From Candidatus Termititenax aidoneus (GTDB lineage Bacteria > Margulisbacteria > Termititenacia > Termititenacales > Termititenacaceae), in contig BGZN01000007.1 of assembly GCA_003864455.1 (NCBI GenBank), positions 1-47,057 of the forward strand: DNA of 47,057 nt, given 5' to 3'. Within the stretch, counting starts at the first letter, position 1, and every line of letters starts with the position of its first letter. Under the pieces are notes generated by a model, which saw only the letters and a list, made by a program, of their open reading frames with translations, did not search any database and was not told the DNA's origin. The translations under genes and the position numbers were made by a program. Of the stretch, positions 4,415-43,900 are shown piece after piece.

Positions 4415-6133
4415 GTGGGCGAACAAATAGGCGCAGGCTCTAGGTCCGGCGGCGGTAAAACGATTTTTATTATTATAGGCGTGGTGATTATCGTCGCGCT
4501 GGCGGTTTTGTTTTTTCTCTACCGCCCATCTTTGGCCGGCGCTGTCAAGATCGGCAGCGGCTCTCTGCCGTCATTCACGCAAAAAAAAGAGCCGGCCGGC
4601 TATTCGGTGCTGTTTAAAAATCTGGACTACACAGAAGCCGCGCTGATCGTGGATTCGCTGAAAACACAGGGCGTGAAAGATTATCGGCTAGAGGATGACG
4701 GCCGTACGATATTAGTGCCGACCAAAAAACGCACGGATATAGTTTTGACCATCGCCCAAGAAGGCATTATGCCCAACGGCGGGGCGGTGGGTTTTGAGAT
4801 TTTTGACAAAGGCAGCGCGCTGGGCGCGTCGGAGTTTGACCAAAACGTGAAATTTTCCCGCGCGATCAGCGGCGAGATGGCGCGCAGCGTGGCGCGGATC
4901 AACGGCATCGAAGAAGCGCGGGTGATCGTGGTCATACCGGCCAAACAGCTTTTTTCCACAGTGCAAAATCCGGTGCAGGCTTCGGTCATGGTCAAGATCG
5001 TGGAGGGCGAGCTGCTCTCTCCGTCGCAGGTGCAGGCGATCATTGCGTTGGTTTCCGCATCGGTGGAAGGCCTGCAAAAAGAAAATATCACAGTGGTGGA
5101 TTATCACGGCCGGGTTTTGAGTTCTGAGGAGTATGCCAAAGATTATGACCGGCTAGCCGCGCTGCTGGCTATGCAAAAAGCGCAGTCCGGCGGCCGCAAT
5201 GTGTCGACGGCGGCTTTGATGGATTCTACGGAGATTCCGCTGGAGGCTTCTGAAAAGGCCGACGAAAGTTCTATTTTTGAGATGTATTACAATATCGACA
5301 ACAACAAGATGAACAGGCAGCAAAGAAGTTCGGTCAGAGGCTTGCGGCTGGATGCCAACGCCAGCGCGGAAGAGGCTTACGCGGCCAAGATGAAATTCAA
5401 GGAGCGCTACGAAAATCTGCTGGAGCGCAATGTCAAACAAATGGCCAATCAGTTTTTCCCCAAAAAAGCCACGACGGTCAAAGTCAATGTGGAACTGAAC
5501 GACCGGCCTTTTGACGCGGTAACGCCAAATTCTATGATCGCGCGGATCACCAGCATGATCCTGCTGGATCAAAACAACAAAGATGTGGTCCTGACTCCGG
5601 AAGTGCGCGAGGCTTTCATGAAATCAATTGCCGCGGCGACGAGTTATGTCAAAGGCCGCGACCGCATCGACCTGCGCTGGTCGCCAAATACTAATGAACA
5701 CAACAAAGGCAATTTATTCAGCGGTTTGAGCAGCGGTCAGGACAAAAAGACGGAAAAAACAGCTCCCAAGGTAACGCCTGTACCGCCTGCGCCGCAGACG
5801 GGCAAAGATCAGCCGGTGATAGATTTATCTAAATTGCAGTCCAAGCCGGAAGTCTTTTGGACATGGAATAATATTCTATATTTAGGCTGCGGACTTTTCG
5901 GCGTGCTGCTCTTGATCATAGTCTTGCGGCCAAGGCATGCCCGCCGAGTTACCGCGGAAAAAGGCGGCAAGAAAAGCTCGGTTTTTGACGAGCCGCCGGA
6001 AGACAAAGAAGGTTTTGCAGACCTTGCCGCTCCCTCGACAGACGCGATCCGCGAGCTGGCCGCGCAAAGCCCGGACAAAGTCGCGGCGGTTTTGGAAAAA
6101 TGGTTTCAGGAAGACGCTGCGGCGCAGAAATAA
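4415..6133 (+). CDS. fliF: Flagellar MS-ring protein FliF
   Basis: FliF forms the membrane-embedded MS-ring, the base on which the export apparatus and rod assemble. The 572-residue protein begins at a GTG with AAGAAAGG about 14 nt upstream. It has two transmembrane segments, near residues 15-35 (FIIIGVVIIVALAVLFFLY) and near residues 490-505 (LGCGLFGVLLLIIVL). Between them lies the ring-building YscJ/FliF domain (Y-S-V-L-F-K-N-L-D-Y-T-E-A, I-M-P-N-G-G-A-V-G-F-E-I-F-D, A-R-V-I-V-V-I-P). The cytoplasmic tail ends with the FliG-binding motif (A-I-R-E-L-A-A-Q-S-P-D-K-V-A-A-V-L-E-K-W-F). All expected parts are present, so an MS-ring with a FliG docking site is predicted. Confidence 0.93.
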   Translation: MGEQIGAGSRSGGGKTIFIIIGVVIIVALAVLFFLYRPSLAGAVKIGSGSLPSFTQKKEPAGYSVLFKNLDYTEAALIVDSLKTQGVKDYRLEDDGRTILVPTKKRTDIVLTIAQEGIMPNGGAVGFEIFDKGSALGASEFDQNVKFSRAISGEMARSVARINGIEEARVIVVIPAKQLFSTVQNPVQASVMVKIVEGELLSPSQVQAIIALVSASVEGLQKENITVVDYHGRVLSSEEYAKDYDRLAALLAMQKAQSGGRNVSTAALMDSTEIPLEASEKADESSIFEMYYNIDNNKMNRQQRSSVRGLRLDANASAEEAYAAKMKFKERYENLLERNVKQMANQFFPKKATTVKVNVELNDRPFDAVTPNSMIARITSMILLDQNNKDVVLTPEVREAFMKSIAAATSYVKGRDRIDLRWSPNTNEHNKGNLFSGLSSGQDKKTEKTAPKVTPVPPAPQTGKDQPVIDLSKLQSKPEVFWTWNNILYLGCGLFGVLLLIIVLRPRHARRVTAEKGGKKSSVFDEPPEDKEGFADLAAPSTDAIRELAAQSPDKVAAVLEKWFQEDAAAQK

Positions 6134-9504: not shown

Positions 9505-9828
9505 CTAGTATTTCTGCAAAACTTTCTGCGTGGCCGCGGTTACTCTTTTTAGCAAATCTTTTTTTAAAGTTTCCGGCAAAAATGAAAAATCCCGCGGCGT
9601 TGTCCGGCGCGGTGCGCGCGGCTGATCCGCAAAGAGCAGTTGCGGCTGGACTTGCAGAGCCGCGGCGATTTTTTCGATCATCTCTATTGATGGAAAGCGG
9701 CGGCCGATCTCGATCTCGCCGATGTAGCTGGGCGCGGTATTGCAGTGAAAGGCCAATTGCATTTGGGACAGGCCGGCCGCTCTCCGGATTTTACGCAGAT
9801 TGGCGATGAATATTTGCTTTAAGCCCAT
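9505..9828 (-). CDS. XRE-family helix-turn-helix transcriptional regulator
   Basis: A 107-residue protein with an N-terminal XRE/Cro-type DNA-binding domain: I-A-N-L-R-K-I-R-R-A-A-G-L-S-Q-M-Q-L-A-F-H-C, then A-P-S-Y-I-G-E-I-E-I-G-R-R-F-P-S-I-E-M-I-E-K-I-A-A-A-L (about residues 8-60). A short basic C-terminal tail of about 40 residues has no recognised domain. It is transcribed away from the second XRE gene's direction of interest, convergent with fliJ. The upstream region has -10-like boxes but no clear Shine-Dalgarno site. It may regulate the downstream cysteine-rich peptide system or itself; the target is not shown by the sequence. Confidence 0.85.
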   Translation of the reverse strand: MGLKQIFIANLRKIRRAAGLSQMQLAFHCNTAPSYIGEIEIGRRFPSIEMIEKIAAALQVQPQLLFADQPRAPRRTTPRDFSFLPETLKKDLLKRVTAATQKVLQKY

Positions 9829-9935: not shown

Positions 9936-10130
9936 TTAAAATAATTTCTTGATGTTTTTACGCAGCGCCGCGGCGATTTTGGCCAGCATTAAGATTGTAG
10001 GGATACGCGAACCGTCCTCAATGCTCTGCACATAACGCAGAGAAATCCCCACCGTATCTGCTAGTCTTTCTTGGGTCATTCCGGACTGCTTGCGGAATTT
10101 CTTAACGTTTTTGCCTATTTGGAAATGCAT
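9936..10130 (-). CDS. Small XRE-family helix-turn-helix regulator, likely repressor of the CXXX-peptide operon
   Basis: A 64-residue protein consisting of little more than one XRE DNA-binding domain: I-G-K-N-V-K-K-F-R-K-Q-S-G-M-T-Q-E-R-L-A-D-T-V-G-I-S-L-R-Y-V-Q-S-I-E-D-G, then a helix ending in N-I-K-K-L-F. It is divergent from the cysteine-rich gene, with 123 nt between them. That gap contains a plus-strand promoter and a perfect 10-bp-arm palindrome placed right after the -10 box. The arrangement is the standard one for an autoregulated repressor controlling its divergent neighbour. Regulation of the peptide operon is inference from layout. Confidence 0.85.
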   Translation of the reverse strand: MHFQIGKNVKKFRKQSGMTQERLADTVGISLRYVQSIEDGSRIPTILMLAKIAAALRKNIKKLF

Positions 10131-10253: not shown

Positions 10254-12257
10254 ATGGCACGCTACACATATAAATTACCGGACGGGGAGACAGCGGCGGG
10301 CGCAACACCGACGACTAACACGGTTCTAGCTGTAAAACAAAATTATTTGTCTGGCAAAGAAGCCTATGCAGCGGATTACAATCAGACAGTGGAGAATCTC
10401 AAAAAAGAGCGGACAAAACGCGGCATCTCAGCTGATGCAGGTTTGTCTGCGGTTACGGCCAAAGCGTCCAAAATAGAGGCCAGCCAGATCAAAGCTTTGC
10501 AAGAAGCGACCAGAGGTTTGGTGGCCTATAACAGCAATGATATTTTTTCATATAGCACAATAGGTATCGGCACGAGGCTTTTAGCCAAACATTTAGAAGA
10601 AGTGCGGCAGGTGGTGGACGACGCGCTGAACAGCGCAAGATGCGGCATCACATGTTCATCGGACTGCGCGCGCAGCTGCGGGACGGGCTGCGCTACCGCG
10701 GCCTGCATCGGGCAATGCGGAGACACTTGCGGAGGCGGGTGCAGCTCGGCTTGCAGCCGGGGCTGCGGTAATGATTGTACGGGGCATTGCGGGACGACAT
10801 GCAGCGGCGGCTGCGGCGAGGCCACTTGCACAGGTTCTTGCGGCGCGGATTGCGCTAACGGCTGCGGCGCGTCAGCCTGTGAGAGCGCTTGCGGCGGAAA
10901 TTGTGAGGGAGGCTGCGGTACGGCTAGCTGTATAGGTGTTTGCGGCAACGCTTGTGAAGGCGGCTGTGGCAGCGGCTGCGAAGGCACTTGTGGTACTGTT
11001 TGTTCCGGTGGTGGTTGTGGCAATAATGCTTGCACCGGTACTTGTGGCGGAAGTTGTGAAGGAGGCTGCGGTGGCAACTGCACGGCTACTTGTGGCGGTG
11101 GTTGTGATAACGACTGTGGGGATGGCTGTAAAGGCGGTTGCAGTCTTGTGTGTGTTGCTGGGTGTGGCAATACATGCAGTGTTGGTTGTGCTAGTTGTAC
11201 TGGCGGATGCAGCACAGCCTGTACTGGTACTTGTGCTAGTGATTGTAATGTTTCTTGCGGAAGTGATTGTGGAGATAATTGTAGTACAAACGGATTTAGT
11301 GGTTCGAATTGTTCCAACTGTGCTTGGAATTGTATTGAAAACTGTGCTAATGGTTGTGGAACTGGCTATTGTAAAGGTGGCTGTCATTCAAATTGTGGAA
11401 GTGATAGTTGTTCTAAGGCGTGTGGTAGCAGCTGCGGTGGAAATTGTGCCAAGGTTTGCAGTGGGTCAAAATGTAATGGTGTCTGCGGTGCTTGTGGGAA
11501 TGCCTGTTATGCTAATTGTACAAGCTCTTGTGGTAGTTCTTGCGGTGGTGGTAGCTGTAAAGCAATTTGTCAAAGCACTTGTGGTGATAGTTGCGGTAAC
11601 GGCTGTGTAGAAGCTTGCAAAAAAGTCTGCGGCGGCTGCACTACATCCTGCGGTGGTAGTTGTAGTAATGGTTGTCAGAATACTACTTGTAAAAATGGTT
11701 GTTATGCTGGTTGCAATAACGGTTGTTCTAGTGATACTTGCAAAGATGGTTGTTATACCGGCTGCAACAATGGTTGTTCTGCTGAAGCATGTAGAAGTGG
11801 CTGTGCCAGCGGCTGCGGCGGAGGCTGTTCCGCTACTGCTTGTGAAAATGGCTGTACCAACGGCTGCGGAGGCGGTTGTTCGGCTACAACCTGCCAGGGT
11901 GGTTGTTACACTGGCTGCAACAACGGCTGCAGCAGTGATTCCTGTGTGAGTGGCTGCCGCGGAGAATGTACCGGCGTTTGTGGCAATGCCGCCTGTGAAA
12001 ACGATTGTCATAGCGCTTGCCATATAGTGTGCAGCGCTGACTGCACTACCGGCTGCGCTTCCAGCTGCAAGGACGGTTGCGGCGAAACCTGCAAGGATGT
12101 TTGTATCAATAATTGTTCCAATTCCTGTATGGCCGGTTGTCTAGATGGCTGCGCGCAGACCAGCCGTTACGGGACAGACCCCGCCGGCACAAATGACCCG
12201 CGTCCGGTTACAGGGAGTTTTAGCGGCAAATTTTCCTATGGATATGGCGAGGGGTAA
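10254..12257 (+). CDS. Giant cysteine-rich CXXX-repeat protein, likely radical SAM target
   Basis: A 667-residue protein with three parts. Residues 1-129 are a cysteine-free, charged N-terminal region that could be a leader; no signal peptide is seen. Residues 130-633 contain 122 cysteines by my count, almost all spaced C-x3-C, with seventeen C-x4-C steps, four C-x2-C steps and one ten-residue break near residue 350. A 34-residue Cys-free tail ends in a Gly/Tyr/Ser-rich stretch (SGKFSYGYGEG). Fillers are mostly Gly, Ser, Ala, Asn and Thr. CXXX-repeat targets of radical SAM maturases are a known class, and a matching maturase lies downstream, which supports that reading. A metal-binding or disulfide-linked structural protein is the alternative. 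The gene sits behind a promoter and palindrome, and its stop is four nt before the next gene. Confidence 0.8.
   Translation: MARYTYKLPDGETAAGATPTTNTVLAVKQNYLSGKEAYAADYNQTVENLKKERTKRGISADAGLSAVTAKASKIEASQIKALQEATRGLVAYNSNDIFSYSTIGIGTRLLAKHLEEVRQVVDDALNSARCGITCSSDCARSCGTGCATAACIGQCGDTCGGGCSSACSRGCGNDCTGHCGTTCSGGCGEATCTGSCGADCANGCGASACESACGGNCEGGCGTASCIGVCGNACEGGCGSGCEGTCGTVCSGGGCGNNACTGTCGGSCEGGCGGNCTATCGGGCDNDCGDGCKGGCSLVCVAGCGNTCSVGCASCTGGCSTACTGTCASDCNVSCGSDCGDNCSTNGFSGSNCSNCAWNCIENCANGCGTGYCKGGCHSNCGSDSCSKACGSSCGGNCAKVCSGSKCNGVCGACGNACYANCTSSCGSSCGGGSCKAICQSTCGDSCGNGCVEACKKVCGGCTTSCGGSCSNGCQNTTCKNGCYAGCNNGCSSDTCKDGCYTGCNNGCSAEACRSGCASGCGGGCSATACENGCTNGCGGGCSATTCQGGCYTGCNNGCSSDSCVSGCRGECTGVCGNAACENDCHSACHIVCSADCTTGCASSCKDGCGETCKDVCINNCSNSCMAGCLDGCAQTSRYGTDPAGTNDPRPVTGSFSGKFSYGYGEG
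11674..11943 (+). repeat. Tandem 51-bp repeats (17-residue units) within the cysteine-rich gene
   Basis: Here the protein settles into a regular higher-order unit of 17 residues with cysteine spacing 3-3-3-4. Successive units read CKNGCYAGCNNGCSSDT, CKDGCYTGCNNGCSAEA, CRSGCASGCGGGCSATA, CENGCTNGCGGGCSATT and CQGGCYTGCNNGCSSDS. At DNA level these are 51-bp repeats that have diverged mostly at third positions. The unit is visible but looser elsewhere in the gene. Confidence 0.8.
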
Positions 12258-12261
12258 AGTC

Positions 12262-12549
12262 ATGAAAATTATAACCACACTTTCTAAAGATGAGCGGGAT
12301 AGTTATGAAGTGATTTACAATAAAATCAGCTGCGCTAAACAAGCGCTGCGCGCGAACGCGATACCGCCATACGCGCCGGTTCAAGCAGCGGACAGATATT
12401 TCCGGGAGGCGATCTTTGCGTATGCGGACGCGCAATATTTGCAGGAGTATTTCTGGCGGGAATTGGCGCGGCGGTACGGAGTGGAACAAAAATATATGGA
12501 CAGGCTGCAGGTGGATTTTGATACGAATAAGTTGTTTGTGAAAGATTGA
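12262..12549 (+). CDS. Small accessory protein of the CXXX-peptide system (copy 1)
   Basis: A 95-residue protein starting at ATG 12262, four nt after the stop of the cysteine-rich gene, with GAGGGG about seven nt upstream; a longer in-frame start at 12145 would overlap that gene and is rejected. It is mostly helical, with an aromatic patch (QYLQEYFWRELARRY) followed by a short C-terminal strand motif LQVDFDTNKLFV. The same layout, W-rich helix then V-D-F-D-T, is found in the protein at 14359-14745, so the two are paralogues. I recall a small family of CXXX-repeat peptide modification proteins with a similar helix-plus-strand end, but could not check it. A role in binding the precursor or the maturase is inference. 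Confidence 0.7.
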   Translation: MKIITTLSKDERDSYEVIYNKISCAKQALRANAIPPYAPVQAADRYFREAIFAYADAQYLQEYFWRELARRYGVEQKYMDRLQVDFDTNKLFVKD

Positions 12550-12582
12550 GTAGAGGCGTTGCAGGCGGAGAGATTGCGCGAG

Positions 12583-12597
12583 GGCGAATATTTTGCC
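12583..12597. repeat. Short palindromic repeat, copy a
   Basis: GGCGAATATTTTGCC, one of five related sites with the pattern GGCAAAnnnTTTGCC in the intergenic parts of the peptide island (others at 12685-12700, 12772-12787, 14100-14114 and 14193-14209). Most are preceded or followed by GCGCG. Confidence 0.5.
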
Positions 12598-12630
12598 GTA
12601 AGCGCGTCTGGCCATTGGTCTGCGACGCGA

Positions 12631-12680
12631 ACTTAACAAGGCTACAAAGTAGCCGACGTTAAGTGAGAGTCCACCACGCG
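12631..12680 (+). repeat. Two-hairpin dispersed repeat, copy 1 (second hairpin disrupted)
   Basis: Hairpin 1: outer stem ACTTAAC (12631-12637) with GTTAAGT (12658-12664), internal loop AAG opposite CGAC, inner stem GCTAC/GTAGC with loop AAA. The spacer GAGAGTC follows, then CCACCACGCGCGG, where the second hairpin of the other copies is broken and replaced by a different palindromic repeat. Confidence 0.65.
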
Positions 12681-12684
12681 CGGC

Positions 12685-12700
12685 GGCAAAGATATTCGCC
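12685..12700. repeat. Short palindromic repeat, copy b
   Basis: GGCAAAGATATTCGCC. It is followed by CTGCGGAATGG. Same family as the sites at 12583 and 12772. Confidence 0.45.
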
Positions 12701-12729
12701 CTGCGGAATGGACGGAGTGTTTAGGCAAA

Positions 12730-12790
12730 GTCGCTTCGACACAGCTCAGCGACCGGTTGTTACAGTGCGCGGGCAAAGATATTTGCCTTG
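12730..12790. repeat. Composite repeat upstream of the radical SAM gene
   Basis: Two modules. 12730-12761 is a palindromic element with outer stem GTCGCT/AGCGAC followed by CGGTTGTT; it resembles a palindrome found between genes in many unrelated bacteria. About 10 nt later comes GGCAAAGATATTTGCC (12772-12787). The same two modules in the same order lie at 14150-14210, just after the radical SAM gene. Confidence 0.65.
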
Positions 12791-12816
12791 CAAGAAAACA
12801 GGGAGAATTTTAGAAC

Positions 12817-14016
12817 ATGATACCAGCTATCAAGAATTATGAGGGATTGAGTGTTACGTTCCAGGTAACGGAGGATTGTAATTTAAGGTGTAAGTATTGT
12901 TATGAAGTGGATAAGAAGCCTGGGGATTTGCCATTTGAATACGCTAAAAAGTTTGTAGACATAATCTTAGAGGATGAAGACCCGATAAACGCCAAAGGCA
13001 CGGATAGCGAGTGGATATTGAAGCAGGGGTTGATTATAGATTTTATCGGCGGAGACGCTTTAATGGTGCCGGAATTGCTGGATAAAATACTGACGTATTA
13101 TCAATACAGGGCAATAACAATGAATCACAAATGGGCGTACCGCTGGAGAGCGAGTATTTCCAGCAATGGGACATTGTTTGAAGACCCAAAAGTAAGAGAT
13201 TTCATGATGAAGTATAAAGACAATCTTTCGATAGGCGTATCGGTAGACGGCTGTCCGGAGATACACGATAAGAACCGCATACATAAAGACGGCAGGGGGA
13301 CGATGAAAGATATACAGAAGTGGTGGGATTGGTATTTAGAGTGGCACGGAATAGACAGCGTGGCCACAAAAGCGACGTGTAATAGAGACACAATACCTTA
13401 TCTGGCCAAATCCATAAAGTTCTTGCACGAGGAGATGAGATTAAAGCATATAAATATAAATTTTATCTTTGAGGATATGCGCCTGACGGAAGCAGACCTG
13501 AAACAGCTAGATGAGGAAATGGAGAAATCCGTAATGTATATACTGGAACACAGGCATGATCTGCATGTCTCAATGTTCGATAAAGGCTTTGGCATAGGTG
13601 AACCCATGAAAGACCCGGACAAGGGTTGGTGCGGTTCAGGATCAATGCCGTGCTTGAGCATAAACGGAAGAATATACCCGTGTTTCAGATTCAGTCCGAA
13701 CACGATGCACAACCGCAAGTTGGATTTTTATGTAGGGGACATTTGGAATGGACTTAACCATAAAGAACGATTTGAGATAGTGAGGCAGCAAACACGCAAA
13801 AAGATTTCACCACAGAAGTGCTTAGAATGCCCTGTAGAGAGCGCGTGCGCGTGGTGTATAGGGGGAGCATTTGCGGAGAAAGGGGAATTTTACCGGCAGA
13901 CGAATATTTGCGAGGTGCATAAACTTCAATCCAAATGGAGCAGGAGATACTGGGAGGAATACGATAAATTAGAAGGTACAAGAAGTTTTGATGATGCTGG
14001 AAAAGTTATTTTGTAG
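12817..14016 (+). CDS. Radical SAM/SPASM peptide maturase of the CXXX-repeat target type
   Basis: A 399-residue enzyme with the radical SAM cluster motif C21-x3-C25-x2-C28 (TEDCNLRCKYCYE). Further conserved features are I-G-G-D-A (GGE-like SAM contact) near residue 80 and S-S-N-G-T-L. A C-terminal SPASM region has cysteines at about 272, 279, 289, 335, 338, 344, 347 and 365 (WCGSGSMPC, YPC, KCLECPVESACAWC, ICEVHK), enough for two auxiliary iron-sulfur clusters. Such enzymes install thioether or related crosslinks on ribosomal peptides. The adjacent cysteine-repeat protein is the obvious substrate. Codon use differs from the neighbours, with many ATA and AGA codons, and the gene is flanked by similar composite repeats, so it may have been acquired. 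GGGAG about 11 nt before the ATG is the ribosome-binding site. Confidence 0.88.
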   Translation: MIPAIKNYEGLSVTFQVTEDCNLRCKYCYEVDKKPGDLPFEYAKKFVDIILEDEDPINAKGTDSEWILKQGLIIDFIGGDALMVPELLDKILTYYQYRAITMNHKWAYRWRASISSNGTLFEDPKVRDFMMKYKDNLSIGVSVDGCPEIHDKNRIHKDGRGTMKDIQKWWDWYLEWHGIDSVATKATCNRDTIPYLAKSIKFLHEEMRLKHININFIFEDMRLTEADLKQLDEEMEKSVMYILEHRHDLHVSMFDKGFGIGEPMKDPDKGWCGSGSMPCLSINGRIYPCFRFSPNTMHNRKLDFYVGDIWNGLNHKERFEIVRQQTRKKISPQKCLECPVESACAWCIGGAFAEKGEFYRQTNICEVHKLQSKWSRRYWEEYDKLEGTRSFDDAGKVIL

Positions 14017-14149
14017 GTAGATGCGTTGCAGGCAACGCATCTATGCTCTGCAAGACCGATATGTTGAAGAGCGAAGAGATAAAGGTAGTAGTTTAGTCCG
14101 GCAAATACTTTGCCAAAGCGCGTGGTAAAACAAAGGGAGAACATGTTGT

Positions 14150-14210
14150 GTCGCTTCGACTCCGCTCAGCGACCGGTTGTTGCGATACGCGAGGGTAAAG
14201 GTATTTGCTG
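14150..14210. repeat. Composite repeat downstream of the radical SAM gene
   Basis: 14150-14181 matches 12730-12761 in 29 of 32 positions (outer stem GTCGCT/AGCGAC, then CGGTTGTT). Ten nt later follows GGGTAAAGGTATTTGCT, a looser form of the second module. The two composites lie in the same orientation on either side of the maturase. Confidence 0.65.
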
Positions 14211-14221
14211 GACGTGAATGG

Positions 14222-14300
14222 CCTCCCCTTGGCAAGGGGAGGCGGCTAAAAATTTGCCACAGGCAAATTTTTGGCGGAGGGGTGTTTTGCGGAGCAAAAC
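14222..14300. repeat. CCTCCCC-type intergenic multi-hairpin repeat
   Basis: Three adjacent hairpins: CCTCCCCTT-GGC-AAGGGGAGG (14222-14242), AAAAATTTGCC-ACA-GGCAAATTTTT (14248-14272) followed by GGCGGAGGGG, and GTTTTGC-GGA-GCAAAAC (14284-14300). Elements starting CCTCCCCTT and ending GGAGGGGT occur between genes in many Firmicutes and other genomes; this copy has that architecture. Confidence 0.6.
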
Positions 14301-14358
14301 ATTGGTTCATGTAAGGTTATTATACGAGAAGCAAAAAAAATAAAAAGGAGGAAAGATT

Positions 14359-14745
14359 ATGACAAAGAACAATGGGAACGGAGAGGCTAAAGAAGCAAAA
14401 GAAACAAAGCCGGAGGTGTGCCCGATCTGCGGGAAAGTGCATCCGCAAAGGGAGGACTTGAATATTAAAGCGACGCGCGATGAGGTGGAAAGCCTGATCT
14501 TAATAAACAACCGCGTGAACGTGGCGGAACAGGCGGCGCGGCCGACGGCTCTACAGCAGGGGGTTACACAGGAGCAAGTGCAGGTGTTTGTAAATGCGGC
14601 TCTGAATGCGAAAGCTGAGGCCATGAATTTACAGCGGCAATGGTGGAATGAAATATTCGCCAAGTATCCGCAATTGCCGAGAGACAAGAATGTGTTTGTG
14701 GATTTCGATACGTGTGATTTCTACTTGAACTTAACGAGCAGCTAG
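14359..14745 (+). CDS. Accessory protein of the CXXX-peptide system (copy 2, with zinc-ribbon-like motif)
   Basis: A 128-residue protein with a superb ribosome-binding site (AAAAAGGAGG). The N-terminus is Lys/Glu-rich and holds C-P-I-C-G-K-V-H, a half zinc ribbon (about residues 21-28). The rest aligns with the 95-residue protein at 12262-12549: R-D-E-V-E-S against K-D-E-R-D-S, the alanine-rich middle helix, then LQRQWWNEIFAKY against LQEYFWRELARRY, and finally V-D-F-D-T in both. The last residues N-L-T-S-S and the stop are encoded by the first bases of a two-hairpin repeat (14729-14792), so the repeat has entered or trimmed the gene's end. The function is unknown; position supports a role in maturation. 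Confidence 0.7.
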   Translation: MTKNNGNGEAKEAKETKPEVCPICGKVHPQREDLNIKATRDEVESLILINNRVNVAEQAARPTALQQGVTQEQVQVFVNAALNAKAEAMNLQRQWWNEIFAKYPQLPRDKNVFVDFDTCDFYLNLTSS

Positions 14746-14792
14746 GCTGCGAAGTTAAGTGAGAGCCACAAGGCCGCGCAGCGGCCGACGTG
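14729..14792 (+). repeat. Two-hairpin dispersed repeat, copy 2
   Basis: Hairpin 1: ACTTAAC/GTTAAGT, GAG opposite CGAA, inner CAGC/GCTG. Spacer GAGAGC. Hairpin 2: CAC/GTG, AAG opposite CGAC, inner GCCGC/GCGGC with loop GCA. The first 17 nt overlap the coding end of the accessory gene, including its TAG stop. Confidence 0.7.
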
Positions 14793-14851: not shown

Positions 14852-14914
14852 ACTAACAAGCAGCTAAGCTGCGAAGTTAAGTGAAAGTCACAAGCCGCTG
14901 AAAGCGGCGAAGTG
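14852..14914 (+). repeat. Two-hairpin dispersed repeat, copy 3
   Basis: Hairpin 1: ACTAAC (one T short) with GTTAAGT, AAG opposite CGAA, inner CAGC/GCTG. Spacer GAAAGT. Hairpin 2: CAC/GTG, AAG opposite CGAA, inner CCGC/GCGG. It lies about 60 nt after copy 2 in the same orientation. Confidence 0.65.
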
Positions 14915-34452: not shown

Positions 34453-34914
34453 ATGAAAAAAACAGTTTTGTTCGGGATATTGCTGGGCGCGTTGCTGGCG
34501 GCGGAATTTTCCGCGGAAGCGGTTACTACTATAGAAAGTCCGCTGCTTGGCCGTCAGACGCTCACGCAAAACATCACGGAATGGCCGCGGCCGGAAAAGA
34601 TTTATCAGGACAAACTATTCACGGAATTTAATTTACAGACCGCCGAAACTCCGGCCGGATTGCAAATGACCGGCGCGCCGAAAGATCCGGACTCAAGTTT
34701 TTCCCGTCTGTTTATTCAGCTAGACCAGAATAAAAACCTTAGCGAATTGCGTCTTTACAACCGGGCGGAGCAAGAAGTGCTTTCGCTTAAAAATACTTAC
34801 GAGGAGCGGGACGGCGTTTTCCTGCCGGCGCGCGCCGAAGTGTTTTTAAGCGAGAGCAAACTCCGCGCCGTTACCGAATACCGCAATGTTCAATTCAATG
34901 GAGAAATAAAATGA
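34453..34914 (+). CDS. Secreted LolA-like protein upstream of the giant esterase gene
   Basis: A 153-residue exported protein starting at ATG 34453 with GGAGGAG upstream (an in-frame start at 34393 lies before the predicted transcription start and is not used). Signal peptide: MKKTVLFGILLGALLAAEFS. The mature part (F-N-L-Q-T-A-E-T-P-A-G-L-Q-M-T, later D-P-D-S-S-F-S-R-L-F-I-Q-L-D and E-V-F-L-S-E-S-K-L-R-A-V-T-E-Y-R-N-V-Q-F-N) resembles the half-barrel of LolA/LolB-type lipoprotein carriers, particularly at its C-terminus. The similarity is partial and the protein is short. Its stop overlaps the start of the giant gene (ATGA), so the two are translated together, and it may help deliver that product. 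Confidence 0.55.
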   Translation: MKKTVLFGILLGALLAAEFSAEAVTTIESPLLGRQTLTQNITEWPRPEKIYQDKLFTEFNLQTAETPAGLQMTGAPKDPDSSFSRLFIQLDQNKNLSELRLYNRAEQEVLSLKNTYEERDGVFLPARAEVFLSESKLRAVTEYRNVQFNGEIK

Positions 34915-37900
34915 AAAAAATATTTTTTCTTCTATTATTGTGCTGCGGACTAAGCGCCCGGCTGTCGGCGGAAATCCAGCCGGTAACTTTGCGCGGTTTG
35001 CCGGAGCACATGCGTTCTTACAAAAATTATCTTGTGGTTTTTGTGCATGGCATGGGCAGCGACGCCGAGGCCTGGACGGAATTAAAAGAGCGCCTGCCGG
35101 AATTAGTCGGTGATCCGGATTTTGCCGGACATCTATACGCCTATACTCTCGCCAATCCAAACGCCGCGTATTACGGCAACGCCGCCGAGTTGAAGAACTG
35201 GCTGGCCGCCGCCCGCCAAGAATTTATTGCCGCGCATCCGGATTGGCCGCTGGACAAAATCCCGAGCAAATTTATTCTGCTGACGCACAGTATGGGCGCG
35301 CTGTCCGCGCGGTCGTATATTTATTCCGAGGCGCTGGCGGCCGCGCGCGTCAACCCCAAAGCTTTTCCGCGCGGTTTTTATCAGGATGATGTGCAAAAAG
35401 CGGTTTTTCTCGCGCCGCCGCATCGTGGGTCGAGCATGGCGGATTTTATTTTTCATTATATGCTTTCCGACGAGGGTTATTACATCGGCGCTGCCGGCAT
35501 TTTGCGTCAGGCTTGGGATGTCTACCGGCAGTTGTCGCCGGTTTTGGATACGCTGGAAAAACTCGAAAAAGACGGCGTGAGTTTAAATTTTGATTTGCTG
35601 CCGGACTTGCGGAGATTCAGGGATGATTTTTACCGGATTTTTGAGGAATTTGAATTTAGTTTACAACTGACCGACGGAAATAAGTATTTGGCCTCTCTGC
35701 GCGATTTGCAAAATAAATTCACGCAGTTGGCCGCGCTGTACAATCCGCTCAATCGTTTATATCAAGTGTTTCTGGAATTGGATTCCGCGCCGCTGCTGGC
35801 TTTTCCGACGCTGAAAACTCTGGTGGAAGCCAATAATTATCTTGCCTCTGATTTAATTAAAGAACTGCTGGACACATTGCTTGAACAGCTTTTTTTGAAA
35901 CAGCAGATAGAGGAAGGCGCGGTGCGTTCTTTGTTAAGCCACAGTCCGGTAACGGCGGTTTTGAATAGAGCGTCTTTGCCGCCGGATCATGATCCGGTGC
36001 TGTACCGCAATATTATTCCGCGCGGGCTGGTCGCTTTTGACCGGCGGCACACGCAAGATTTTAATCAATCCTTTTACGGCAATTTGCCCGCGCTGCTCGG
36101 CTTTGCTAAAGAAACCGCTGATTTCACGCCGAATAATTTTATTTCCGGTCTGGCTGCTAACGCTTATCAGATTAAGCTGCTGTCCTCGCCGGAGTATCGG
36201 CGGCTGCCCTCGGGCGAAGCGCGTTTGCTGGCTTTGCTGATGAGTTACACGCGCGGCCTTTTTACTGTGGAAGGCGACGGCGCGGTGGACATAGACAGTC
36301 TGCGCGGCAAAGATATTCCCGGTCTGGCCGCCGCTAAAAATTATTACAAGAATTTTGCGCATGCTGATCTGTCTGATTATTTTGACCGGGGATTTTTGGA
36401 AGACACTGTCGAGGCTGAAGCTGCCTGCGTGGTGGTCGAGTTGGCTTTGAATGCGTTCGGCGGTACTACGCCCAAAGGTGTGCGCGGCGCGATCCGCGCC
36501 GCGCCGTTTTTCAATTTCATTTCTGTGGTCGCGCGGCGTCAGGAAGATCTGGCGCAGGATTTTTTCGCGCACAATAATATTTTGCAGCCGCAAAATTCCC
36601 TGCCGCTGATCGAGCAGTCTTTATATGACGCGCCGCTGCTGGTCTTGCAAAATATTTACACTGTATCCGGTGATGAGCAAATCGAACTGGCGGCTGACGC
36701 TTTGCAGGAACAAACCGCCGTTGAGCAGACTAATACCACTTTACCGCTGCGCCGCGGCGCCAAAACTTTTTATCTGCCGCTGGCCTACAATGTCAAAGCT
36801 CCGCAGGTGCGCTTGTCCGCCGAGCTTTACGATCTTGCGCCGCATCTGGCCAGTCTGGAATATTCTTTCAATTTCGCGCCGTACACTGCCGCTCCGGTCG
36901 ACAAATGGGGCGCGGTTGCTTTGCCGGATTTTTCCGTGGCGGAAGGTCAGAATATTATCGCTTTCCGCGCGGTCAACCGCGTCGGCCAGACTACAGAACA
37001 GTTTTTGCGTATCATTCGTTCCAGCACACCGCTGCTGGCTTCGGAGATTTCTCCCGAGCCTTTTGCCGCGGTCAATACCGGCAATTTGACGCTCAGCCTC
37101 ATTTTGTACAACGCGCAATTTGTGACTAACAATCTCGGCGTTTCCAGTATCGACGAAATAATTCTGGACGGGGAAAAATTGCGCTCTGATCAATATGTTT
37201 TGTCCCGCGGCTCTAATCACGCTTACCGCAATTATCTTAAACTGGACGCGCCGCTGACTTTAGGTGAAGGCCGGCATACGGTTTCACTTCAAGCGCATGA
37301 TACCTATGGCCACCACAATTCCACGCATTGGTTTTTTACCGTGGATACTACGCCGCCGGAGATAAATATAGAAGAGCTTTTACCAGCTGCGGCCGGACGA
37401 ATGCTAACCATTAATTACACGATCTCCGACAATTCAGCCGTCTTGAGCGATTTGCAAATAAATTTGCGCGATGCGGAGGAGGTTTTGAGCAGTAAAAATT
37501 ATGCGCTGGCCAGCGCTGGCCTGCAGCAGGAATTATTTGCGGTCGGCGACTGGCCGGACGGCGCGTATATTTTGGATATTGGCGCGGCGGATCAGGCCGG
37601 CAATCGCACTGTGCGTCAGGCGGCGGTTATTGTCGACAATCAGCCGCCGCAGATTTCCTGCCAAAAAAATGCCGCTGAATTTATTTTAACGTCCAGCGAG
37701 AAAATATCCGGCCAGGTCATTCTCGCGCACGAGCAGCTGCGCGTCCCGCTGCCGTTAAGTCTGGTTACGGAAAATATTTACGCCGCAAATTTTTCCGGAT
37801 TGCCGGACGGCGTTTATGCCGCGCGCGCCGAAATCAGCGATCTGGCCGGCAACGCGGTTGATTTGACTATGGACGATTTGCGCCTAGACACGCGCGGTCT

Positions 37901-40900
37901 GCAAATTGCCAGTCTGCGCGCCGAGCCGGTCATTTTGCATAGAGACAATTCTTACCGGACGAAAATTATTTGCGCCGCGCCGGATGCCGCGCGGGTAAAT
38001 GTGATTATCAAGCACAAATCTTCCGGCCAGGAAATAATTAACGCGCCATTAAGCGCGCAATCCGGTGTTTTCACAATGGAATGGTCGGCTGAACAATGTC
38101 CGCGCGGCGCTTATATCGCGCTGGTAACGGCGGTGGACAATTCCGGCCGGCAGACCGCGCGCGAGTGCGAGATTATTAAGGACGGTATCACTCCGGAAAT
38201 CATTTGGCCTGCGGCCGGAGGGCAGGTTGGGGGCGTTGTTTCGGTAACCGGCAAGGCTGTAGACCCGGACTGGAACAACGCTCTGGATTTCGATTTTTAT
38301 GCTCTGTACTGGGCTTACGGCTGGCAGCCGCTGCCGGAAGATTTGCGCAATATTGACAGGTCTGTCTGGCAGACGGCGGGTTTGGAAACTCCGCAGCTCA
38401 ATAGAGCGCCGGACGCGCCGCAAAATACTTCCGGTCGTCAGTCTTCCGCGGACGGCTTGTTGGCCTGGTGGGACACGCGCGCGCTGCCGGACGGCCGGTA
38501 TACTTTGCTTTTGCTGGCCGCGGAGCAAAATCCGGGTCTGGCGGCCGGCGCGGTGCGTGAAATACTAGTCGAGCCGCCGCTGGAAAATCAAGCAGATTTC
38601 CGTTTGAGCCGAGAACAGACCGCTTCGCAAAATATAGAGTTTACGATAGTCAATCTGGGCGGCACAGCCAATATCAGCGCGGAAATACTCGATAAATACG
38701 GCTGCGTAGTACGGCAGCATTTTTGGCCGGACGTGCCGGCTGCCGTTTATCTCGGCCGGCCGGAGATTTCCGCTGCCGGCGTTTATTTGTGGCAGGAAGA
38801 AAACTGGCATTTGCGTTTGGCCGCCGCGGAAAACTCTACTTTCAATATTTTGCTGGCCGGCGTCGGCGAGGCGCTGGCCGCCGATATTCCGTATGCGCTC
38901 AATTCCGGTCTTTTGCAAATTGAAGGATCGGCCGGCGGCGAAATCGTTTTTACTTTGCGGCCGCAAACGGATAGTTTATTTATCAACACTCAAGGCACTA
39001 TGCCGCTTTATATTGGAGCGGGCTGTTATCAGCCGCCGGCCAATGCTTACTGGCTGTCCGCCGGACAGTCGGCCGGCGCGTTAAATTTAGCTTGGGACGG
39101 CCGTTTGGCCGGCGGTGGATATTCTGATAGTGGAGAGTATTACTTTCAACTATCATGTTATGGCGCAGACGGCGGCTTCAAGCGCGAAACTATTACTTTC
39201 AATATAGAAACGCCTTTTGCCGCGCAGAACGGCGGTTTGACTCCGGCGGACGGCAGTTTCGACGCTTTTGGCGAATTAAACAAAATCACCCTGAGTTACA
39301 AAGTAAATAAAGACAGTTATTTGCGCGCGGCTGTGTTGGACGAGTTTGGCGTTACAGTTTCTGTGCTGCCGGAAGAAAAAATTTCAGGATCGGAACAGTT
39401 TAAATATTTGGACTGGAACGGCGCTTATCCAGATTTTGCCGGACGGCAGAGATTGGTCAGCGGCAATTACCGTATTCTGTTATTTTTGCGCGCCGGCGAC
39501 GGCTCTGCCGCACAGACTTTAATTTATGACCATATCAAAATCCAAAATAATATTTCCGGCGATTTGGCGCGCCTGGAGTCGCTCGGCGAACCTGTGCTTT
39601 TCAACGGCCGTACTGTGCAGGCTGTCAGCGGCTCGGCGCAGTATTACTGGTCGGCGCGCGGCGAAGGATTTTACACTGTGCCCCAGACTTTTAGTTACGA
39701 GCTGGAGCTGTCCGGTACGCAAGCCGTAACCGCTGCGCCTTTTGTGCCTTTTGCCGGGCTGTATCACCGCGGATTTAATAGAGTGAATCTGATAGTTGAG
39801 GTTGCTTATAAATGGAATGTTGATTACAAAAATGGCAGCGGCGCCAGTTGGAAAACAATGCAAGAAGGCTGGGAGGGCGACGATTTTTCGGTGTCGCTTA
39901 CTTTGCAAAATCAGGCGGTTGGCAATATTTCGGCGCGGAGCGACCACAGCAGCGGCTGGAAAATCACTAATCTGGATTATGCTTATGTTAATCCCGGGGC
40001 GGATTTTATTTCTGTGACGCTCAAAGATACCGCCGGAAATGTAATTTATTCCGGCGAAAGCAATGGCGGAGTGTTTGAAAACGCCAATTTCTGCAACGGT
40101 GCGTTTGATATCAAAGTGTCCACCGTGACTGGTTATGATAAAAAAAGCGGACGCTGTTATATATACAGCAAAATCGACCGGCTGAAACTTAAAGACGACA
40201 TCAAATATTCCCGTCTGACCAATCGCTACTATGCGTGGTATGGCTATGTCAACAAATATTATCCGCAGGAATTACAGTTTTCCGCAATGTGGAATGATCT
40301 GGGCAAATTAGGTTTTGTGCCGAGCAGTTATTTCCTGAACGGGCTGAATACAAACACCTTGAACACGCTTTTTAAAGAAACTTATCCGCAAGTCCTCAGC
40401 GGCGCGGCGGAACAGAATCAAAGCTTGATCGAGGCTTTGCAAAAAATAAATGTTTTGTACGAATCCATGCCTTGCACGGATAACAGCTATTATCATTATC
40501 TGGCTGATGAGTACTGTGAGTTTATTCCCATGACTTCCGGCCAGACTTATTTTACGCAGGAAAAATTGCCGTCAACCAATTTAGTGGTTAAAGCCGCGGT
40601 GTATACAGATTTTGTGGTGACCGCGAATATTCCCTGGCCGGCCAGCGAGAAATATATAGTAGGCGAGGAAAACAAAGCCAAACAATTAATTGAAGATTTG
40701 GCCGCGCGGCGAGAGATTGAATTAGTGGATTATTCAGAGCTGCCGCGGATTTTTGATAAACAGTCAATTGATTTTGGCGGCTTGAGTTTTAGCCGTTTAC
40801 CGGTGCAGGCCGCGCTTGGCAAAAACGGCCTGTATCAAAAAAGTTTGCTGGACATTACGGCGCGCCTGCCTAAAACAGTTGACCGAAATTCTTTGCGGGT

Positions 40901-43900
40901 GAAAATTGCCAACAATTCTCCTGAAACCACAGTCTGGCTGGACGGCGGCAATGTGCTGGCACAGTATTCCGGCGCAGGGTCTGCACAGACTTTTGCCTGG
41001 TCAACCGAGCAGGATTTTTTCCTGCGCCACGGCGTGATCGACAGCGCGGCTCTGTATTTCAACGCGCAAGGTTATGCGCCGCAGTCCGAGCCGCTTTATT
41101 TGTATGAAGCTTATTTCAATCCTTTGAACCGCCGCGCTGATTTACCGTCGCAAAATATCACGCCGGTCGATTATTATACTTTTTTGGCGCACGATTATTA
41201 TGACTCCGACTCCGGCTATGTTTTAAATCCCAATTTGGATTTCACGCGCTGGACTGTGCAGGTATACGATCAGACCGGTCGGCCAAATGAAGATTTTTCG
41301 GTTGCGGAAGTGAATTTGAGCAATGAGAATATTTGGCAAAATAATTTCCGGCTCAAGTTGAATCTCGACGCCGCGGAAAAACGCTATGTGGAAATTTGCG
41401 GTCAAGCGGCCGGCGCTTATGAACTGCTTTATTTTGACGGCGAGACCTGGCTGACGATTTGCACCGGCAATGCCACCAGCGGGCATTTGGGCTGGTGGGA
41501 TGTAACACAATTAAACGGCGCGCATACGCTGGCCTTAAAAGTGGCCGCGTCCGACGGCTGCTATTCTTTGGCTACACAGGAGATTTTTATTGGCCAGCTT
41601 TTGCGGTATGGCGACAGCAGCGAAACGAATAAAAAAGTCAGCAGTCCTTACCAGCGCGCGGAAGTTTTCTTTCACCCCCGGTCTTTTGCCGAGGATAAAT
41701 TTATTACTGTCGCGCCGGTCAAACTGCAGGATTTGACTTTGCAAAACCGGCCGGAACTTTACACGCTGGGGCCTGTTCTGGAAATTTTGCCGCACGGCTC
41801 GTCTTTTCCCGAGCCGGACAAACGTCCGACGGCGGTTTTCCGTTACAGCCATGACGATCTGGCCGAGCTGCGCGCTAGAGGCGTGGATTTAAGCAGGCTG
41901 GGTTTGTATTACATCAATGAGAGCGGCAATCTGGAGAACGCAAATAGCCAGATCACGCCGACAGAATACGGTGTGGAGATTTTGACAGTCTTGAATCATT
42001 TTTCGCCGTATACCGTGCTGGCCGGAGAAGTGCCGCCGCTGCCGACTTTTAACGTAGTTTTGAGCGATTTACACGGGCGCAGGCTAAAAGTTTTTGGCCT
42101 GGCTCAGCCGCAAAGCGCGCTGGAAATTTATCTCGATGACGATGAATTTTTCGGCGACAGCGACGGCGAGGATATTGTTTACAGCGTTACGGCGACGACT
42201 GACGCCGCGGCCTGGATTTTTGACCGCCGCGAGTGGAACGTTGATTATTTGGCCAAGCTTGATCCCGAACAAAAAGACAAAGCGCTGGCGGCCAGGCATT
42301 TATTGCAGGAAATGTACTGGTCGGCGCTGGCGGACAATCAAGCGGCTGAGCAGGATTACGCGCGGCAATACGCCGAACTGATCACCGCCGATCAGACCCA
42401 AGCGGAGTTGATCCGCGAGTTTTTGCTGGCGAATAATCAAGCTGGATTGTTGACGACAAATTCCGGTATTGCTTTGCAGGAACAGGTCGATTTGCGTCTA
42501 AATTTAACCGCGCCAACTTTGAATAACGTTTTGCCGGAAAGATTAGAAATAATTCTGCGCAAATCTTTTCCGCTTATTAGCGGCCGGCCGGCGGAAATAT
42601 TTAAAACAACCGCCGATGCCAAAGGCTATTTTGTCTGCGAACTGCCGCTGGAAAATCCGACTGCCAGTATTTTTGCGACTTATGAATTGACCGGCAATAT
42701 TCAAAATCGGCCGGTGGCGCGGCTGTATTTTGCCGAAGACCCTGAAGCGCCGCAGTTCTTGGCGGTAACTCTCTCCAGCGCGTATGCCAATCAAGAGCGG
42801 CCGGCGGTGGACGTTACCTTAAATTTGAGCGAAGCGGCCAAACTGCTGATCTCCGCTTACAATGCGCGCGGCGAATTGCTGGATTTGCAATATGAAAATG
42901 TGTTTTTGCCGGAGCATGTTTTGCAGTTTGCGCCGCCTGCGGAAGGAGAATTCTATTACACTGTGCAGGCTTTTGATCCGGCTGGCAATGCCGGCCAGCC
43001 GCTGGGTTTTACAGTTACGGCTGACTTCACGCCGCCGCTGCTGGCAGACCTGTACATACCGCAGCATATTAATCCGCAGAAAAATAATTTGTTAGACTTG
43101 ATTAGTTTTACGGAAAATATTGCGACCTATTCTATCGCGGTTACGGAAAATGAAAATTATGAATATTTTATCTCCGCGGCTGACGCGGCCGGCAATGCCG
43201 TAACTTTGAGCGGCGTGGTTTATGCGGACACTGAGCCGCCGGTGCTGGCGGATTTTAGTTTTGGACCGCAGGCGGAGCGCGGCGTGCGCGTGTACTGGCC
43301 GGAAAACGAAACCGCTAATTATATTCTGGAGGCCAGACGGCTTAACACGGATAGCGGCAGCGTTTACAATATCGCGGACAATTATTATTACGATCAGTCT
43401 GTCAGTCCGGATATTTTTTATGCCTATACTTTGTGCGCTGTGGACGCGGCCGGCAATACCAGCAATGCTTTAACCAAATTGATTTACACGGCGGACAATT
43501 CTGCTCAGGCTCTATCCGACGGCCGCGCGCTTGTTTACCAGGATATTCAGATTCAGGCAATCCCGCGGCAGCCGGACAGTTTATTTGTCGTGCAGAGACT
43601 GGCGCTGCCTGCCGGCCAAAACCGGGGCGACAAAATTCAATTGACGCCTTTTTATCGTTTTCTGGCCAGCGGACAGGAACATTTGAGCGAACCGCTGACA
43701 GTTACCTTGTCTTTTGCGCCGGAAAGTCTTGCGGAAAAATATGTCAGGCCGGACAGTTTGTTTATGGAACGCGGCGAATTGCTGGCCGTCGATTATCAAA
43801 CCGGCGAGGCGGTTTTCCGCGCGCCGGATTTTGGCGATTATGCTTTGTTCGGCGCGCCGGAATACCATTTATTTGACCATGAAGCGCCGGCGCTGCGTTT

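Follow-up and report, generated by a model that had tools for sequence, protein, structure and literature searches.

A giant CXXX-repeat protein and its radical SAM maturase in Candidatus Termititenax aidoneus, with relatives in tailed phages

What is a 667-residue protein with 122 cysteines made into when it is encoded beside a radical SAM/SPASM enzyme, and where did such a pair come from? The question is raised by positions 10254-14745 of contig BGZN01000007.1 (nucleotides 1-47,057 of the forward strand, hereafter the window), which belongs to the 2.26-Mb draft genome of Candidatus Termititenax aidoneus, a member of the Margulisbacteria whose close relatives include T. persephonae. The locus is one copy of a cassette in which a divergent XRE regulator gene precedes the target, accessory protein 1 (acc1), the maturase and accessory protein 2 (acc2), and the cassette occurs at at least seven loci in this genome and in relatives. 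The system is real, conserved and, as judged from selection, functional. It is of the CXXX-repeat radical SAM kind and is distinguished by its giant multi-copy targets, its doubled accessory and its dedicated XRE regulators. Maturase-CXXX systems are also widespread in tailed phages and concentrated at the junction of the tail-fibre and lysis genes, an unexpected general result. The combined evidence suggests a chemically stapled protein fibre of a previously undescribed kind.

The CXXX target, its maturase and the accessory proteins

The protein-coding features of the operon and the parts of the target are as follows.

10254-12257, plus strand: target protein, 667 amino acids, 122 cysteines (19 homologues compared)
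10254-10640, plus strand: cysteine-free N-terminal leader, residues 1-129, ending in ...HLEEVRQVVDDALNSAR (conserved in 16 aligned Termititenax targets and two phage targets)
10641-12152, plus strand: CXXX array, residues 130-633, with a family-level eight-residue superperiod, CGxxCxxx
12153-12254, plus strand: cysteine-free C-terminal tail with an SRYGTDPAG-type motif (listed with the tails of homologous targets)
12262-12549, plus strand: acc1, 95 amino acids, TIGR04116-like (E = 4e-4)
12817-14016, plus strand: radical SAM/SPASM maturase, 399 amino acids
14359-14745, plus strand: acc2, 128 amino acids, TIGR04116-like (E = 2.4e-5), with CPICGKVHP near its N-terminus

All 122 cysteines of the target fall within the 504 residues of the array, as the first-pass annotation of this DNA had claimed, and 99 of the 121 spacings between successive cysteines are of four residues (17 are of five and four of three). 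When the residues of the array were shuffled 2000 times, strict CxxxC pairs numbered 12.7 on average and 26 at most, against the 99 observed. The cysteine codons are mixed (68 TGT and 54 TGC), so the array is not a young DNA satellite. Its composition is 24% cysteine, with glycine, serine and aspartate. Across 19 Termititenax targets glycine follows cysteine in about one third of the units and does so in alternation: a CG unit is followed by another two units on with a frequency of 0.60 (shuffled mean 0.34, maximum 0.39), and at the next unit with a frequency of 0.15 (shuffled minimum 0.28). For the family as a whole the real unit thus spans eight residues, as CGxxCxxx; taken singly, the window target shows only a weak lag-2 effect (0.32). 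The same alternation was expected in phage targets and was not borne out, being weak there. The first-pass annotation put the cysteine part at about five times the length of a typical short precursor; an array of such length is not unique, since phage targets carry 12-160 cysteines. The leader was modelled with AlphaFold2 (AF2), but the predicted local distance difference test score (pLDDT) reached only 62 and the Foldseek result on that model was meaningless.

The curated family closest to the maturase, and the best of 62, is TIGR04115 (NCBIfam, CXXX-repeat maturase; E = 1.1e-81). The score of 275.1 bits does not reach the 350-bit cut-off of that model, which no genome of the phylum sample exceeds, and the adjacent CXXX-repeat target that the family calls for is present. 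The radical SAM motif CX3CX2C is formed by C21, C25 and C28, with ten more cysteines elsewhere in the protein. In the 11 bacterial and phage homologues aligned, C21, C25, C28, C272, C289, C335, C338, C344, C347 and C365 are invariant; seven of the ten extra cysteines are thus conserved in a manner consistent with the SPASM pattern, which places the enzyme in the radical SAM/SPASM class. Its best match among solved structures is CteB (PDB 5wgg, 2.5e-23), over maturase residues 14-364. Both matches agree with the earlier proposal of a peptide-modifying SPASM radical SAM enzyme of the CXXX-target type; a maturase outside such families, one of the refutations named in advance, is not what was found. 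With its radical SAM cysteines beginning at residue 21, the maturase has no room for a fused recognition element (RRE, a PqqD-like winged helix) of the type known from ribosomally synthesized and post-translationally modified peptides (RiPPs) and carries none; the rest of the genome was not searched for a separate RRE.

The two small accessory proteins were also found where the first-pass annotation had put them. acc1 starts at 12262, four nucleotides past the target stop (the mechanical list of open reading frames (ORFs) has an earlier start at 12145). That acc1 and acc2 are homologous to each other had been overlooked. Neither reaches the 50-bit cut-off of TIGR04116 (CXXX_rpt_assoc), with 20.5 bits for acc1 and 24.4 for acc2, and 21 of 29 homologues match this model (best E 2.4e-5). 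The AF2 model of acc1 (pLDDT 94) has a strand-helix-long helix-two-strand fold with no PDB match below E 1; two weak matches to small phage proteins in BFVD (E 0.1, probability 0.97) were not used as evidence. A role of acc1 and acc2 as RREs was considered and dropped on account of the fold, which in the acc1 model is built on a long helix and significantly matches nothing in the PDB. In acc2, C21, C24 and H28 are invariant among 18 homologues, and the CPICGKVHP motif is a putative zinc knuckle.

Compared with known systems, the cassette resembles those of TIGR04115/TIGR04116 in its enzyme type beside a CXXX-repeat target and a small accessory. It differs from these curated models in its sub-cut-off scores (275 of 350 bits, and at most about 24 of 50), its two homologous accessories, a much longer target, a divergent XRE regulator, many copies and phage relatives. 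In the PapB/freyrasin ranthipeptide (CX3D), cysteine is linked to the residue four positions on, with six links per chain (PMC9413430). PapB is likewise a SPASM radical SAM enzyme, and its model is the second-best hidden Markov model match of the window maturase (147.7 of 340 bits), whereas position i+4 of the window array is cysteine in 99 of 121 spacings and not the Asp or Glu of a CX3D/E motif, no fused RRE was found here, and the arrays hold up to 137 cysteines instead of six motifs. The structural match to CteB, the thioether maturase of SCIFF peptides, begins only at CteB residue 100; the window enzyme thus lacks the N-terminal part of CteB, and its target is not a small SCIFF peptide.

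Copies, selection and regulation in the Termititenax family

The first-pass annotation treated the locus as a single unusual one, but the cassette is multi-copy and family-wide. Seven maturases of the window type were found in the genome (contigs C7, C5, C111, C16, C9 with two, and C40), and a further target lies on contig C19. The C19 and C40 genes could be the halves of one cassette, so the minimum count is seven. Several more cassettes occur in relatives within the genus and in the sister genus, and the order target, acc1, maturase, acc2 holds wherever the contig is long enough. All copy numbers are minima, several contigs ending inside or beside a cassette; in G007, a genome rated complete, leaders and accessory genes are all that was seen, close to the ends of contigs. 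Within the phylum, the leader and accessory profiles match only the Termititenax family, and CXXX arrays rise above the pattern background only there. Neighbours of the sampled cassettes are housekeeping genes (RlmN, LepA, a PurF-like protein, PheS and RmuC), and no integrase or transposase was recognised beside them.

The Termititenax maturases share 86% mean identity. Among maturase paralogues the ratio of nonsynonymous to synonymous substitution rates (dN/dS) is 0.02-0.06 in the four pairs with a calculable dS, the other four pairs being saturated at synonymous sites. Elsewhere in the cassette it is 0.03-0.21 for acc2, 0.1-0.2 for the leader and 0.19-0.38 for acc1. Judging by these low values, the tested copies have been preserved as functional proteins. 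When targets from one chromosomal position are compared across species, they are often no more similar than paralogues from other positions (the FliJ-flanked targets of G000, the present genome, and G003 are an example), and cassette flanks have been re-joined between genomes. Target similarity unlinked to position, together with the re-joined flanks, indicates that cassette versions recombine between sites.

Two divergent XRE repressor-like genes upstream of the window target, overlooked in the first-pass annotation, and two spacers complete the cassette.

9505-9828, minus strand: XRE-family helix-turn-helix (HTH) regulator, divergent from the operon (Pfam HTH_3, 1e-11)
9936-10130, minus strand: second small XRE-family HTH protein, between the regulator and the target (Pfam HTH_3, 3e-14)
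12550-12816, plus strand: spacer with repeat elements between acc1 and the maturase
14017-14358, plus strand: spacer between the maturase and acc2, with copies of the repeat elements of the first spacer

A small divergent ORF lies directly upstream in 20 of the 23 cassettes compared, nearly all of them HTH-like and of several regulator subtypes. The short dispersed repeats of the window (12730-12771 and 14150-14191; 12654-12671, 14750-14767 and 14872-14889) were apparently inserted between genes that are directly or almost directly adjacent in several other copies. In this genome an orphan acc2-like gene with neither target nor maturase was also observed beside a ParA-like ATPase (G000:C1:93450-93788) and is conserved in genomes G001, G003 and G004.

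Phage relatives and the origin of the cassette

When viral contigs were scanned with the maturase alignment, two relatives at 54-56% identity appeared, both accompanied by a long CXXX target, and in a wider scan 158 contigs encoded a maturase relative. A CXXX ORF lay within 4 kb of the maturase relative in 73 of the best 80 contigs. After removal of duplicates, and under a stricter pattern of five cysteines, an array was found within 4 kb in 57 of 63 distinct viral loci and beyond that distance in none of the 63 (331 kb of farther sequence), compared with 1 of 35 control radical SAM loci. The first-pass annotation had named beforehand, as a possible refutation, maturase homologues that are never found near CXXX proteins; the two are almost always adjacent. 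The commonest PHROG families just upstream of the viral pair are tail fibre, tail and baseplate, and those just downstream are endolysins. This location between the tail or tail-fibre genes and the lysis genes is that of the phage loci and not of the Termititenax loci, which lie among housekeeping genes. Our literature search found nothing on CXXX-repeat systems or on phage CXXX-radical SAM pairs.

Two phage contigs are especially close to the Termititenax cassettes. G056 encodes a terminase, a portal and a DNA polymerase together with an acc1-target-maturase set; proteins beside this set carry DHTQY motifs, which occur in phage fibres, and have no PHROG match. G055 encodes a terminase, a portal, a major head protein, a minor tail protein and a weak tape-measure match, and its acc1-target-maturase set is placed after two very large proteins. 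Both share with Termititenax the leader motif, the array, the C-tail and the accessory (2e-26 and 2e-15). Phage target C-tails end in an SRxGxDxGSY-type motif similar to that of Termititenax. Leader searches in annotated phages gave no match.

In the maturase tree, the Termititenax sequences form one clade (support 100/99) with the G056 phage as its sister (98/86) and three further phage sequences next. The sister placement was stable (97/96) when 12 Verrucomicrobia homologues were added to the two other non-viral sequences of the tree. About half of the Verrucomicrobia loci examined have small CXXX peptides (7-11 cysteines), which look like ordinary short precursors. The nested maturase and the shared leader and accessory place the Termititenax cassette in the phage CXXX lineage, with bacteria more thinly sampled. 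The simplest reading of these sequences would be a transfer from a phage lineage to the Termititenax ancestor followed by duplication, the direction not being proven with limited bacterial sampling.

More distant maturase relatives were found in the Salmonella jumbo phage SPN3US and the Erwinia phage Caitlin, each beside two tandem CXXX proteins of about 130 amino acids with 20-21 cysteines.

L231:5085-5484 and 5497-5899: the two CXXX ORFs of SPN3US
L232:2092-2482 and 2424-2886: the two CXXX ORFs of Caitlin

Two radical SAM genes lie near these ORFs, as does a gene annotated as a virion structural protein. SPN3US resembles the Termititenax cassette in its distant maturase relative beside CXXX proteins and differs from it in having two radical SAM genes and two small targets (about 133 amino acids, 20-21 cysteines) that GenBank does not recognise; a clear accessory protein was not found there. 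In public annotation the CXXX ORFs of both phages are missing or misframed: in the SPN3US record, a hypothetical CDS (5570-5905) overlaps the second ORF out of its frame and nothing is annotated at the first. SPN3US gp168 and gp171 are tail proteins, and gp168 is related to a baseplate-periphery protein of phiKZ (PMC5105663); their identity with the CXXX-neighbour genes hinges on an unconfirmed numbering conversion. The question is directly testable in SPN3US, a phage that can be cultivated and whose pair of CXXX ORFs is incorrectly annotated.

Other loci vary this arrangement. A 185-kb phage contig (L127:5914-7210) encodes a CXXX-type maturase with five in-frame TAG codons, whose reading frame stays open only when TAG encodes Gln. 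The fecal contig MT837480 (L130:2222-2746) encodes a CXXX protein with 32 cysteines and a twin-arginine (Tat)-like signal, directly followed by a TIGR04115-type maturase and a second SPASM-like protein. Viral contigs L150 (284 kb) and L152 (159 kb) have maturases near the Termititenax clade with different targets, of 73 and of only 12 cysteines.

A stapled fibre and competing explanations

We give an even chance to the explanation that the locus is a dedicated maturation cassette whose array becomes a stapled rod, linked to the tail fibres in phages, while the Termititenax product would be an amplified fibre of phage origin. The leader, perhaps with acc1 and acc2, would recruit the target to the maturase, which would cleave SAM (S-adenosylmethionine) reductively, abstract hydrogen atoms and move along the array link by link. 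Cysteine sulfurs would be joined to nearby backbone or side-chain carbons by thioether or comparable links, so that a flexible Gly/Ser/Cys chain would become a stiff rod, stapled covalently and resistant to reduction. In phages, the rod is most likely a component of the tail-fibre apparatus or an attachment to it, possibly a fibre shaft, spike or connector, and would be made in the cytoplasm without a signal peptide. Termititenax appears to have taken over the cassette of a phage lineage and increased its copy number, with a separate XRE repressor for every copy, and the product is probably a fibre or adhesive filament that serves an attached lifestyle. Termititenax members are reportedly attached to the ectosymbiotic spirochaetes of termite-gut protists (Utami et al. 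2019), which makes a surface filament an attractive idea, and the product would be a candidate molecule for this lifestyle. A bolder version, tentative and clearly less probable, is that stapled CXXX fibres are a general, overlooked tail part of tailed phages, and that Termititenax domesticated them and amplified separately regulated, recombining versions into filaments of up to 137 cysteines for attachment to spirochaetes. The idea of a long crosslinked fibre was already in the first-pass annotation; the fibre is supported indirectly, by the location of the phage relatives among tail-fibre genes, and the crosslinks we infer.

Several observations weigh against the stapled fibre. The array has no invariant X position, and i+4 is usually cysteine itself; with all X positions variable, a specific acceptor such as the Asp of the PapB substrate is not indicated, and an alpha-carbon or another permissive acceptor is possible. 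Viral collections are sampled more deeply than bacterial ones, so the nesting among phages could be exaggerated. The leaders of more distant phage targets do not align significantly with Termititenax leaders (hhalign probability 15%), and homology to the common phage leader family was not established. The target has no Sec or Tat signal and no hydrophobic leader segment, although TatC is present in the genome, and the earlier claims that a signal peptide is absent and no transporter is nearby held for target and cassette. Contractile export by a tailocin or extracellular contractile injection system was considered, and no phage sheath gene was found in the genome; a route out of the cell for a bacterial fibre is thus visible neither in the cassette nor through a sheath gene.

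The competing explanations account for parts of this evidence. The least unlikely is a metallothionein-like store of metal, Fe-S clusters or thiols, with an array modified lightly or not at all and a maturase that only primes or repairs it: an array with 24% cysteine and with Gly, Ser and Asp could bind many metals, and acc2 has its zinc-knuckle-like motif. Yet a SPASM enzyme with seven conserved auxiliary-cluster cysteines accompanies the arrays at at least seven loci and in phages, neither the regular CXXX and eight-residue period nor the phage tail-region location is expected of a store, and the housekeeping surroundings of the cassettes include no consistently adjacent metal-handling gene. 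Next in plausibility, and also unlikely, is a giant RiPP whose array is cut into secreted crosslinked peptides acting as bacteriocin or signal. The leader-core layout and a maturase like those of ranthipeptide and sactipeptide systems fit it, as do the small Verrucomicrobia peptides beside related enzymes and the Tat-signal target of the fecal contig, whereas no protease, exporter or immunity gene is part of any cassette copy examined, no constant cut site recurs in the Termititenax arrays, which range from 55 to 137 cysteines, and the C-terminal tail is conserved right to its end in the targets compared.

An intracellular filament, retained for good and serving as scaffold or store, is more doubtful again. 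It would explain the missing signal peptide and hydrophobic leader segment, and phage proteins of such a kind are likewise assembled in the cytoplasm, but there are no conserved partner genes for a compartment and the nearest relatives sit in virion tail modules. Highly improbable is a selfish or defence-related repeat cassette, its copies spread and kept for recombination or conflict and not for structure; many copies, divergent XRE regulators of several types and target versions shuffled between chromosomal positions could be read in this way, while the lack of a recognised mobility gene beside the sampled cassettes, their housekeeping neighbours and the strong purifying selection on the maturase argue against it.

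If the stapled-fibre explanation is true, serial thioether stapling by an enzyme would join disulfides and isopeptides as a way to tough protein fibres, and a probable role could be given to the CXXX-repeat radical SAM enzymes, a family for which only a curated model is known. It would also follow that many phages, the genetic model SPN3US among them, encode close to the tail genes a modified protein that has gone unrecognised.

Other cysteine-rich or surface-type proteins were observed in this genome and phylum. On contig C24 of the same genome (L116:12840-13662), a second kind of cysteine-rich protein (274 amino acids, 35 cysteines, CxCxxxCxC-like spacing) is encoded next to radical SAM genes, and other radical SAM clusters occur on contigs C13 and C8. 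A possible secreted cousin is encoded in G018, from another Margulisbacteria family (L027, at about 3.2-3.9 kb on the minus strand): beside a TIGR04115-like enzyme lies a protein with 10 cysteines, 'xRxAHxNELRxAI' leader-like motifs and what appears to be a signal peptide. The window itself also encodes, at 34911-44474, a 3187-residue protein that combines Ig-like domains with a FlgD-Ig domain at its C-terminus and has a weak match to alpha/beta-hydrolases; it looks like a large surface protein.

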